Positions 3,047 through 45,738 of a stretch of DNA of 64,000 bases are shown piece after piece (within the stretch, counting starts at the first letter, position 1; the number at the start of each line of letters is the position of its first letter). The translations under genes were made by a program, and so were the position numbers. The DNA is taken from positions 2,891,674 through 2,955,673 of the forward strand of contig OY725501.1 in the NCBI GenBank assembly GCA_963281255.1, in the 5' to 3' direction. This DNA comes from Aphrocallistes beatrix (taxonomy: Eukaryota; Porifera; Hexactinellida; Sceptrulophora; Aphrocallistidae). The notes under the pieces were generated by a model that was not told the origin of the DNA, did no database searches, and was given only the letters and a program-made list of their open reading frames with translations.

Positions 3047-3698
3047 CAAGCGCGCGCTTCACTTGCTTGCACTGCGCGGCTTGCGGACACTTTGTGTCCG
3101 CAGAGTTTTTGAGAGCACACCTGAGATGTTTAATTAATTGCTGCAACTACAAAGCACCTTATAATTGCTTAGCTAAGTTAATAACCCATAATGATCTATA
3201 AAGTAGTTATTCAAAACAAAGTACACCTTTATTGAAAACAAATGACTTTACTCAAAATTGTATCCACTATTCTCAAAATTTCTACACTGATGCCATCTAA
3301 CTATCAGATGTTAGAGTATTCATATGTAAAGTTAGATATACTTTTCAAATGAATGGAAAGTAAGACTATTCCTTAAGAATTTTGACTTCGATCCTTGAAA
3401 TTCACTCTTATGCTTAGTTGCTGTTTTCACCAATTTGCATCCTTTTCTAAGAACAAATTCGATTTGAAATTTCAAATCATCATAAACATTGAATATAATC
3501 CTATTTGCTGCCATTTTCTTTGCTGTTCTCTCGCATTCGTTAAAGATATTTGGTGTTTATTCGAGTGATTTCGATTTTAAAACTAAGATGGACATATTTA
3601 GAGATGATATATCCCGTTTAATTAACCAATGTCACCCCAGGCGACCGAAGGGAGTGTCCGCCAGCCGCGCAGCGCAAGCAAGCGAAGCGCGCTTGTAA
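3047..3698. mobile_element. element with inverted GC-rich ends enclosing a GNAT gene fragment
   Basis: The left end (3047-3112) and right end (about 3630-3698) are inverted copies of one GC-rich sequence that starts ACAAGCGCGC and contains the GGACAC/GTGTCC hairpin. A third copy, longer on its inner side, lies at 44100. Between the ends sits a piece of the GNAT gene and its 3' flank (3108-3546). About 85 bp internal to the right end (3546-3630) also resemble 44190-44280, so the element is longer than its tips. No clear target-site duplication was found, so the superfamily is open. Confidence 0.6.
3332..3546 (-). pseudogene. GNAT acetyltransferase copy B, C-terminal fragment
   Basis: Encodes only the last third of the acetyltransferase (from the ECERTAKKM helix to the C-terminal FHSFEKYI). 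It matches copies A and C but with more substitutions. The N-terminal two thirds, exon 1 and the acetyl-CoA loop are absent; the break at about 3546 passes into unrelated repeat sequence. It lies between the inverted GC-rich ends described at 3047-3698. Confidence 0.8.
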
Positions 3699-3829
3699 GT
3701 AATAACAATGACAGACTACAATAGTGATCATACAATGATTTCTATTGTGAGAGTGAAGCCGTACCTAGTATTTTGAAAAGGTGTGAAAAATTGTTTTACA
3801 TTTTTTTTGCAGAGGTGTAAAATTTCGCT

Positions 3830-3970
3830 TAGATCTTGGAACTTAATCCTAGATTCATCATTTGACACCTACATGCCAATTCTCATATCTCTACGACTTG
3901 CCAATTCTTCAATCAATTCGGACAAACAAAAAATCCTAGCGTTTTAATATATAAGATACTAACTAAGGAC
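3830..3970 (+). repeat. dispersed repeat (ends AGCGTTTTAATATA)
   Basis: Contains TTTGACACCTACATGCCAAT, a TTCTTCAATCAATTCGG block and an ATCCTAGCGTTTTAA tail. The same order occurs inverted in a dynein intron at about 33570-33660. A weaker match (ACATGCCAAAAATC then TTCTTCAATCAATTCG) lies at 44540-44590. Class unknown. Confidence 0.6.
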
Positions 3971-4214
3971 TTATCATGTCAGGACATTATCCCCTCAAAA
4001 TAGATACATTCAAGTTTTTAAAAAATAATTTAAATATCTGATAATTATATAATATATATATATATATACACGTATTTACCGAATGTTAACCTATTTTAAT
4101 AGATGGATTTTCGCCATTGGATAAAACTGTGCTCTAGGAGTTTACTCAAAAATTTAGCTCAATATAAGTCTCATTACAGAAATATTCGGATATCGGTCCT
4201 TTTGATTAGAAGTG

Positions 4215-4485
4215 TGGTGACCGTGAGTCCTTCTCTTGTGGATCTGCCGGTTGGCCTGCGCGGAATTGCGCCAGAGGGGATTCGTCCCATCTCAGGGACT
4301 CATCAGGCGGGTGACCCGCGACCCCTTATGAACCGTGATCCACCTTCGGGTGGGTCACGGACCTTTTTGTCCAGTCCAGGAGCTGACCTGTGAGTCACTC
4401 CTGGACTCCGCCTGCTGCCTTCCAATTCCGCCCCTTGGAGAGTCTACTGGAGCGGTGCCTCCAGTACAAGAAGTAAATCGGTTTA
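4215..4485 (-). mobile_element. small structured GC-rich element carrying a hammerhead motif
   Basis: A GC-rich island of about 270 bp in AT-rich flanks. Read on the minus strand it folds into successive hairpins: CTGGAG/CTCCAG (about 4444-4461), GTCCAGGAG/CTCCTGGAC (about 4373-4405), CCGTGACCCACC with a CGAA loop and its partner (4334-4359), then the hammerhead motif (4275-4326). It lacks an open reading frame. The layout resembles ribozyme-bearing small retroelements (retrozymes, or Penelope-associated repeats); that assignment is inference from one copy. Confidence 0.5.
4275..4326 (-). ncRNA. hammerhead ribozyme motif
   Basis: Read 4326 to 4275 on the minus strand. Stem III is AGGGG (4326-4322) with CCCCU (4279-4275). 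The cleavage triplet is GUC (C17 at 4320). Stem I is GCGGG/CCCGC with loop UCA. The core CUGAUGA is at 4306-4300. Stem II is GUCCC/GGGAC with loop UGAGAU, and the second core GAA is at 4283-4281. The only departure from the consensus core is position 15.1 (U at 4280 instead of A), which could weaken or abolish cleavage. All three stems pair fully apart from that. Confidence 0.8.
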
Positions 4486-4576
4486 GTAAAACAAGGTACA
4501 TTTTTGGATATGAGTCCAGCTACAAACACAACTCAACACAAACAACCGATTTTAGAATAATGTACAAGTACAAGTA

Positions 4577-5497
4577 TTACAGTGGATATTGGAGATAATG
4601 ATATGTTGGATATTGAGATAGTTTTATATATTTTTCGAATGAATGAAAAGTAAGACTCTCCCTTAAGTATTTTGACTTTGATCCCTGAAATTCACTCTTG
4701 TGCTTAGTTGTTGTTTTTATCAATTTGCATCCTTTTCTGAGAACAAATTCGATTTGAAATTTCAAATCATCATAGACATCCAATATGATCCTCTTAGCGC
4801 CCATCTTCTTTGCTGTTCTCTCACATTCGTCAAAGAATAAAGAGCCAAGTCCCCGTTTCCTATATTCTGTTTTGATTGAGTTATTGGTAAAGAAGCAGGT
4901 TAAGCTTCCATCTAAAATTTCGGGTTTGCTAATACTACAGCATCCGATAAGTTCTTTTGTACTCTTAAGTCTCATGGAAATAAAGACAGTGCCCTTTTGA
5001 ATTTGATTCTCCATTTCTTCTTTGCTCATCCTTGGTGCTTTTGAAAAGTCAGCTGCTATATTATTTTCAGGTAGACTTGCAAACCATGTATTTAGTCCAA
5101 GCAAATATTCTTCAAGTTCAGACTCTTTTAAAATTGAGAAAACGATATCTTCTTGAGAAATGTTGTCATTATTACTTCCTCCAGTAGATCTATTCATGAT
5201 ACTCCTTGCTTCTCTGCCTACCATTTACATTATTATTAAAATTTTAAACTAGTTGTACAGTCAAGATAAGTCATTCATACCTGAATATATGTTGAACTTG
5301 AAAGGTTGATTGTATTTCGGTTCAAGATTATTCCTCCAACTCATGCATGAGCTATAACTTCGAACTGAATTCCATTTCACTCCCAGTGTGCTTCTACCTG
5401 GATGCATCTTTGGTATATTGATTATGTTAGGAATGTTCAAATACTTGTTTGAATGCAGGACACGAGAGATATGTTGGATATTAAATATACGTCTCAT
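4577..5497 (-). CDS. GNAT-family N-acetyltransferase, copy C (two exons)
   Basis: Exon 1 is 5497-5281 and exon 2 is 5217-4577, with the same 63-bp intron, donor and acceptor as copy A. The product is about 285 residues and nearly identical to copy A over the GNAT domain (R-K-R-G-L-G acetyl-CoA loop). The C-terminus differs: copy A stops after FEKYI, whereas here the frame runs on for 15 residues (KLSQYPTYHYLQYPL) into unrelated 3' sequence, so the duplication breakpoint lies at the stop codon. The 5' flank matches copy A out to about 6012, making this a segmental duplication rather than a retrocopy, since the intron is kept. Confidence 0.7.
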
Positions 5498-40871: not shown

Positions 40872-41432
40872 ATTAGCAGCCCCATGTTTTTAATATTTCA
40901 AATAAAATATATGGTAATTGAGAATACATTGATGGAGTATCAACCCTAAAAGCGGGATAAAAATGTTGAAAAAATAGCCAGAAGTCAGTATTCAAAATTT
41001 CGGATTTTAGTTAACTTTGATGAGGTAGTCCTAAGGGTAAACGGAAATTTCGTCCCTGGAAATTTCGTCCCCGGAAATTTCGTCGTCCCTTGTTATTCGG
41101 CTTATATTCATTCATGAGGATAAATAAGGTTTAATTAATAATGAAATAGGTATGTGAGGAAGTAGTCAAAACTTAAGTAGTAGTCAAAAATCAAAATTGT
41201 ATGTGATTCCCCTAAGATATGTTGTTATATCATTCTCATAATCTCCAACAAGTAACAGTATACGCTCATCTCGTTCAATCGACTTCTTGCTACGTACTAT
41301 TCTTTCACCAGACTCCCACTTTATCAGTTTGGCCTCTTGTAGCGACTGTTCTCGTTGCTTTTGTTTTTTTGTTGTTTTTTTTGCCCCTAATTTCTACCCA
41401 GCCTATAGGTCCATAAACCCATGATCCGGCCC

Positions 41433-42395
41433 TGGTTATAACACATGTTATAACACTGTTATAACACATGTTATGACACTGTTATAACACATGTTATAAC
41501 AGTGTTATAACATGTGTTATAACACTGTTATAACTCATGTTATAACAGTGTTATAATTATCACATGTTATAACACTGTTATAACTCATGTTATAACACTG
41601 TTATAACACATGTTATGACACTGTTATAACACATGTTATAACACTGTTATAACATGTGTTATAACACTGTTATAACTCATGTTATAACACTGTTATAACA
41701 CTGTTATAACACATGTTATAACACTGTTATAACACTGTTATAACACATGTTATAACACTGTTATAACACTGTTATAACACATGTTATAACACTGTTATAA
41801 CACATGTTATAACACTGTTATAACACATGTTATAACACTGTTATAACATGTGTTATAACACTGTTATAACTCATGTTATAACACTGTTATAACACTGTTA
41901 TAACTCATGTTATAACACTGTTATAACACATGTTATAACAGTGTTATAACACATGTTATAACAGTGTTATAACACATGTTATGACAGTGTTATAACATGT
42001 GTTATAACACATGTTGTAACACTGTTATAACACTGTTATAACATGTGTTATAACAGTGTTATAACTCATGTTATAACACTGTTATAACACATGTTATAAC
42101 ACTGTTATAACTCATGTTATAACACTGTTATAACACATGTTATGACACTGTTATAACACATGTTATAACACTGTTATAAGATGTGTTATAACACTGTTAT
42201 AACATATGTTGTAACACTGTTATAACATGTGTTATAACACTGTTATAACTCATGTTATAACACTGTTATAACACATGTTATAACACTGTTATAACACATG
42301 TTATAACACTGTTATAACACATGTTATAACACTGTTATAACATGTGTTATAACACTGTTATAACTCATGTTATAACACATGTTATAACACTTATA
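41433..42395. repeat. GTTATAACAC satellite, long form (about 960 bp)
   Basis: About 80 contiguous units of GTTATAACAC(A/T)(G/T) in which GTTATAAC is itself a palindrome. It ends in TTATAATTTAATGCTCGG, the diverged arm of the element at 40670. There are no unique spacers between units. Confidence 0.9.
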
Positions 42396-45663: not shown

Positions 45664-45738
45664 AGAGGTGACCTTTCTTAATTCCAATGCAGAACTAACG
45701 AAAAAACTTCTAAATATTAATTGTCACGAAAAAGTAGA

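Follow-up and report, generated by a model that had tools for sequence, protein, structure and literature searches.

The published accounts consulted here place the type III hammerhead of retrozymes in plants, where the elements are of LTR type, and the type I hammerhead in animals, where they are non-LTR (PMC9695139, PMC7229834). As described for the plant elements, hammerheads in two LTRs cut the transcript, and the released RNA is circularised and reverse transcribed (PMC4918200). A type III topology is described in animals for HDV-like agents and for termite and dipteran genomes (PMC7936874), and for the type III hammerheads of insects work in preparation is cited (PMC7761336, PMC7936874). 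The TRIMs Helenus and Ajax are small non-autonomous LTR elements with an unusual RNA module in the LTR and duplications of 4–5 bp; some of their families are described from solo LTRs or fragments only, and Helenus occurs in animals among others, Ajax in nemerteans (PMC10886601). In the literature that we searched, which left preprints and most subscription papers outside, we found no hammerhead reported from an LTR element of an animal.

Here we describe a hammerhead-bearing repeat family, termed class A, from a 64-kb window (the whole stretch of DNA analysed) on contig C15 of a genome of 100.5 Mb in 28 contigs. The window copy is probably the solo LTR of a small, GC-rich retroelement of LTR type that carries a type III hammerhead in its LTR. 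Both the hammerhead motif and the mobile family are real, and the literature examined places an element of this kind only in plants. Class A has in common with the plant LTR retrozymes, NbRZ of N. benthamiana included, a type III hammerhead in an LTR-like repeat, a short duplication, high GC, many single-LTR copies and a predicted fold that blocks the ribozyme; it differs in a duplication of 5 bp rather than 4 bp, a unit of 180–256 bp rather than ~300–400 bp, and an animal host (PMC4918200, PMC9695139). The plant elements are further described with two LTRs, each with a hammerhead, around a non-coding region, and with a PBS (tRNA-Met) and a PPT, whereas whole-unit searches, in which only the best candidates were scored, found single units and no internal region in which a PBS or PPT could lie. 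Because these searches turned up no two-LTR structure, and because the duplication is 5 bp, we do not place the family among the plant-type LTR retrozymes; in its insertion, judged by its sequence, the class-A unit behaves like the end of an LTR retrozyme.

The comparison with animal systems runs along other lines. The metazoan non-LTR retrozymes are likewise non-coding, hammerhead-bearing and a few hundred bp long, and are described as type I, tandem, with no LTR signatures and with GC below 50% (PMC7229834), whereas class A is type III, consists of dispersed single units with LTR-type ends, and has a GC of 0.52–0.61. The hammerheads of Penelope-like elements and Terminons are minimal type I motifs in a PLE element that encodes its RT; ours is type III, with an RT fragment at one composite locus only. 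With the HDV-like, termite and dipteran hammerheads it shares topology, and those are described with a longer helix I, an extra hairpin and a loop–loop pseudoknot, the termite motifs being isolated (PMC7936874), whereas the present motif has a helix I of 5 bp with a 3-nt loop and sits in a repeat family. The LTR module of Helenus and Ajax is tRNA-like or 5S-derived (PMC10886601), and here it is a ribozyme. A type III hammerhead in an LTR-type element of an animal would break the split between plant, LTR and type III on one side and animal, non-LTR and type I on the other.

The host was taken to be an animal because TGF-beta domains were found at five places in its genome, all over the cut-off; wnt gave no match anywhere, control genomes included, and is uninformative as a marker. 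The window encodes, among others, a dynein heavy chain and an NHL protein, and the look of the NHL proteins suggests that the animal may be a sponge.

Using cmscan, a match to RF00008 (Hammerhead_3) was found at 4327–4274 on the minus strand, scoring 54.9 bits against a gathering cut-off of 48.5 (E 2e-9 for 64 kb) and covering all 54 model positions without an indel, so that the covariance model upholds the hammerhead proposed in a first-pass annotation of this DNA. It was the only Rfam match over threshold in the 64-kb window, and a permissive Rfam search of 3500–5200 returned the same match together with four others, each below its own family cut-off. The motif (4274–4327, minus strand) was resolved by the class-A alignment and pair counts into stem III (4327–4321/4280–4274), stem I (4319–4315/4311–4307) and stem II (4299–4295/4288–4284), arranged around the core elements CUGAUGA (4306–4300) and GAA (4283–4281). 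The GUC triplet ends at 4320 in the RF00008 alignment, which puts the predicted cleavage site after C17 (4320), between 4319 and 4320. The core, the GUC site and a U at position 15.1 (4280), mismatched with U16.1, all lie where the first-pass annotation had placed them; its claim that all three stems pair completely did not hold, since only 15 of the 17 pairs are standard, the exceptions being U15.1/U16.1 and the outermost A/C.

Across the whole genome, RF00008 gave at least 54 matches at E up to 10, at least 12 of them over the cut-off, among the 68 of 13,935 first-look candidates that were scored; in the control genomes, 7 of 14 had matches and none was over the cut-off. A 26-base core pattern, allowing up to three mismatches, occurs at 25 places on 10 contigs of the same genome, and the reversed pattern at none; in viral contigs a core pattern also found no place. 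The 25 places are an incomplete census, because the window-subfamily copies L039 and L040 are too diverged for the pattern. The first-pass annotation had held that the lack of an Infernal hit above threshold, and of any other copy keeping the stems, would speak against its motif; both a match over threshold and other genomic copies that keep the stems were found.

Comparison of flanks separated the copies into subfamily A1 (the window copy, L031, L039, L040 and a truncated L005), subfamily A2 (L018, L020, L022, L023, L026, L028, L030, L032, L055 and others) and subfamily A3 (L017/L025 and L086), the remaining class-A loci being single copies. A1 and A2 align with each other over the ribozyme alone (~50 nt), except in L027, which from its sequence looks like an A1/A2 chimera. 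Nine measured units are 180–256 bp long with a GC of 0.52–0.61, against 0.29–0.42 in their flanks. Diverged places (L080–L087) hold related ribozymes whose unit ends could not be confidently placed; L080 and L081 are one duplicated locus, with 883 identical bases in inverted orientation.

Pairing was assessed in an alignment of 19 copies, which omits the diverged L036, L055, L058 and L063–L065 and all motifs of a second class, class B. Across these copies 84.0% of pair cells are standard, and 7 of the 17 pairs show changes on both sides, a number that 15 of 500 shuffles reach with kinship still in; the covariation score of 0.164 exceeds all 500 shuffles, which likewise leave relatedness in. 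The pair 15.1–16.1 is standard (U-A) in 16 of the 19 aligned copies and U/U in the window copy, whose ribozyme, lacking this pair, is probably weak or dead. The annotation's proposal to look for copies with a standard pair at this position was thus rewarded, and its suggestion of a decayed member is borne out, the family being a mobile one for which no literature match was found. The small set of copies allows the decay of the ribozyme to be followed. That the motif has arisen by chance, or belongs to an unrelated structured host RNA, seems to us scarcely credible: the 54-nt motif alone does fold weakly (z −1.89, with 8 of 200 shuffles as good), but the E value of 2e-9 in the window, the 25 core places against none for the reversed pattern, the stems kept across flanks that do not align, and the duplications and empty site described below all argue against it.

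The complete solo LTR-like unit in the window was delimited by the termini and duplication scan, by length and GC and by the family alignment to 4213–4468 on the minus strand, that is 256 bp, rather than the 270 bp estimated in the first-pass annotation. On the ribozyme strand it runs from 5' TGTACTGGAG to GGTCACCACA 3', and it is flanked by the two copies of a target-site duplication, AGAAG on the plus strand and CTTCT on the minus strand, at 4208–4212 and 4469–4473. The GC is 0.61 in the element against 0.29 in 600 bp of flanks, in agreement with the GC-rich island noted earlier.

An automatic scan for TGT...ACA ends bordered by an exact 5-bp repeat was positive at 8 of the 20 class-A loci and at none of the other 12; of the controls with swapped loci, 11 of 380 were positive. 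In seven of the eight positive loci the hit lies at the family termini, with the duplications TAAGA (L020), CTTCT (window), ATAGG (L023), GATTG (L026 and L032), CAGAC (L028) and CGGTT (L039); L031 was positive at non-family ends, which we took as chance. Because L026 and L032 have a common target and common flanks, these represent six independent insertions. Two further loci scanned additionally, L055 and L058, gave no TGT/ACA duplication, L055 being missed because its unit ends in ATA; GCATG stands on both sides of that unit. The flanks of L018 read CTAAC/CTAAT. Eight joined flank pairs were then compared with the genome, and for L055 two paralogous loci on C17 without the element were found, each with a single GCATG, one crossing the joint over 205 query bases and the other extending only ~20 bases left of the joint. 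The L055 unit was thus inserted with a 5-bp duplication. For the other seven pairs no empty site is claimed, the L018 joint being crossed by one repeat by ~15 bases, which was not used.

The ends of seven units share only 1–4 terminal bases. For six of these units 200–432 of 500 shuffles do as well as the best inverted match found within 70 bp, and for the window unit 30 of 500 do, so that there is no long terminal inverted repeat. TG...CA termini with a target-site duplication within the 4–6 bp described for LTRs (PMC12440569) are thus found together in these units, and the TGT...ACA ends, the varied 5-bp duplications and the absence of a TIR beyond the terminal bases are the marks of an LTR that an integrase of retroviral type has inserted.

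Similar ends also occur in some DNA transposons, and the units might be non-autonomous elements of that kind (MITEs) that a Ginger-like integrase-transposase mobilises, TGTNR being the sequence of its ends as well; we consider this improbable. Ginger1 has TGT...ACA-type ends that resemble Gypsy LTR ends, and a Gypsy-related integrase, and OTU ORFs, one of them with a weak integrase-core match (rve E 0.0034), lie beside the other type III class of this genome; but Ginger1 is described with TIRs of 40–270 bp and 4-bp duplications of CCGG/CCGT (PMC2836005), whereas the present units share 1–4 terminal bases without a TIR and have 5-bp duplications of varied sequence.

That other class, class B, comprises type III-like motifs with 59-nt spans, below the RF00008 cut-off, in L034, L035, L037, L038 and L044–L046 (at ~1501–1559 in each) and in L043. 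Pfam OTU was matched upstream of the motif in L038 (E 2.2e-9), L044 (5.9e-5) and weakly L035 (0.016), and the DNA of L034, L037, L045 and L046 resembles these OTU-bearing loci. The integrase-core match, which lies upstream of L044 and is Ginger1-like, is below its cut-off; L043 and L044 have only ~83 bases around the motif in common. Class B was considered as an autonomous partner of class A and rejected, as outside the ribozyme no homology between the two classes was seen.

We return to the solo LTR, which remains the best reading of a unit that, by its sequence, has neither partner nor internal region. By analogy with the plant retrozymes, we infer a scheme of hammerhead release and circularisation for the present family, in which a parent element with two LTRs would give a transcript that spans both, cleavage by the two hammerheads would free a unit RNA that might, like those of the plant retrozymes, become circular, and a reverse transcriptase and an integrase supplied in trans would copy and insert it. 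Recombination between LTRs would leave single LTRs, and the window copy would be an old remnant of such an insertion. Integrase_H2C2 domains occur at at least 150 places in the genome (150 scored of 657 candidates), all over the cut-off and 29 of them in frames of more than 1000 aa, an abundance that we counted in favour of the LTR reading; among the genome's integrases no autonomous partner for the class-A family was identified.

The 180–256-bp unit could instead be the complete element, a single-unit retrozyme that passes through an RNA circle or multimer and uses an LTR-type integrase without ever having had a two-LTR parent, and we give this a minor though not trivial chance. Class-A units are single in the loci compared, the inverted pair L017/L025 excepted, the 25 core places hold no pair in direct orientation within 10 kb, and the unit size falls in the 170–400-nt range of animal retrozyme RNAs (PMC7229834). 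Yet the one ribozyme of such a unit does not suffice to release a monomer. Constant TGT...ACA ends such as those of class A normally arise when a template with two LTRs is reverse transcribed in the LTR manner, which also argues against the single unit. Even in N. benthamiana full-length loci are described as nine among hundreds of retrozyme loci (PMC9695139), so that a scarcity of complete copies need not favour it.

Three same-strand pairs of copies were considered as the LTRs of a parent element and rejected. For L031 and L040 (C9, 8.4 kb apart) the outer flanks are unlike, CTCTG as against ATTAC, and in the interval covered (L047 3300–10000, which stops 1.6 kb short of L031) a single ORF of at least 110 aa occurs, a TRAF-type zinc-finger gene. 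L039 and L005 (C3, same strand, 9.2 kb) have flanks that match on both sides, and therefore represent one insertion in a duplicated locus; between them, on the ribozyme strand, lies an integrase-core ORF of 270 aa (L049 6675–7487, minus strand; Pfam rve 4.1e-13). In L083 and L036 (C10, 511/525 kb, 13.9 kb apart) the similarity runs past the shared 547 bp; these are older class-A-like ribozymes in a duplicated stretch, 86% identical over the 547 bp and with further matches on both sides.

The first-pass annotation had also pointed to the hammerheads of animal retrozymes and Penelope-like elements and had proposed a check for tandem copies. Neither lead was confirmed, as the 25 core places include no close tandem copies and the motif is type III, with LTR-type termini and 5-bp duplications, whilst the type I model RF00163, with 73 scored out of 13,243 first-look candidates, gave one match genome-wide at E 0.52 and none over the cut-off. 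It is accordingly very unlikely that the unit is a typical non-LTR retrozyme of animals or a fragment of a Penelope-like element. The observation that favours it comes from C9:718926–722998, where the inverted units L017 and L025, ~1 kb apart and 94% identical over 171 bp, enclose an RT fragment (Pfam RVT_1 E 2.8e-4, below cut-off) which from its motifs we take to be Penelope-type and whose RT family has 79 matches in the genome, fragments included. Against it, this fragment lies beside only that pair of copies, the RT-element homology ends before the ribozyme arm and the joint occurs at one locus only, and DNA comparison of the flanks at the other class-A loci revealed no full Penelope-like element ending in the ribozyme. 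The locus (C9:719–721 kb) looks, from its sequence, like a composite rather than the engine of the family. Its interpretation as a 1.25-kb TIR transposon with a hammerhead in each arm was rejected, since neither a 5-bp duplication nor a second such arrangement was seen and an RT fragment lies inside. Three ~440-bp matches to the query from this locus were likewise discarded as gene paralogues (one confirmed), about one third of the query being a gene, presumably acyl-CoA-oxidase-like. L076 (C9:4998500–5003000; RVT_1 E 9.5e-5, below cut-off) holds what, again from its motifs, we take to be a Penelope-like element with an open frame of 700 aa, adjoining a 159-bp tandem array; a fragment from its RT family gives 79 matches genome-wide.

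Beyond the window copy, we judge the chances about even that animals own LTR retrozymes, inserted by an integrase and with a plant-like type III hammerhead, that the ribozyme cassette has been kept or recaptured by several unrelated LTR families, and that a second type III class lies downstream of integrase/OTU (Ginger1-like) ORFs. If animal LTR retrozymes exist, the plant/animal split would result from sampling, and elements that encode an integrase would form a general reservoir of hammerheads.

The predicted folds of the unit add to the comparison with plants. On the ribozyme strand the whole window unit folds at −116.5 kcal/mol (z −4.65), better than all 200 shuffles, and the opposite strand likewise outdoes all of its shuffles (z −3.50); since both strands fold well, the fold does not single out a strand. 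From the row of hairpins described in the first-pass annotation, those at 4374–4406 (GTCCAGGAG ... CTCCTGGAC, read from the sequence) and at 4445–4466 near the 5' end of the unit (TACTGGAGGCACCGCTCCAGTA), both given on the minus strand, are present in the folds of both strands, whilst the stretch upstream of the motif at 4333–4360 on the minus strand (CCGTGACCCACC CGAA GGTGGATCACGG, also read from the sequence) forms 10 pairs in the plus-strand fold and none in the minimum-energy fold of the ribozyme strand. Stem III is missing from the predicted whole-unit folds of all eight units, none of its seven pairs being formed, and forcing the active fold on these units costs 0.9–9.3 kcal/mol. The RNAs of plant LTR retrozymes are described with the ribozyme similarly blocked in the predicted fold (PMC7229834); the blocked folds predicted here fit that analogy and are no evidence of activity.

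Several other features of the window were recorded. Near-identical duplicated GNAT acetyltransferase-like ORFs lie at 472–1074 and 4577–5224 (the second with Pfam Acetyltransf_1 5.6e-7), and the 3' end of the second one is closely followed by the ribozyme element. A dense array of 11/12- and 23-bp repeats occupies 41377–42380 and includes inverted repeats of up to 172 nt per arm, 84–92% complementary in the pairs listed. An ORF at 45721–46608 matches glycosyl hydrolase family 7 (Pfam E 1.5e-28), here in an animal genome.
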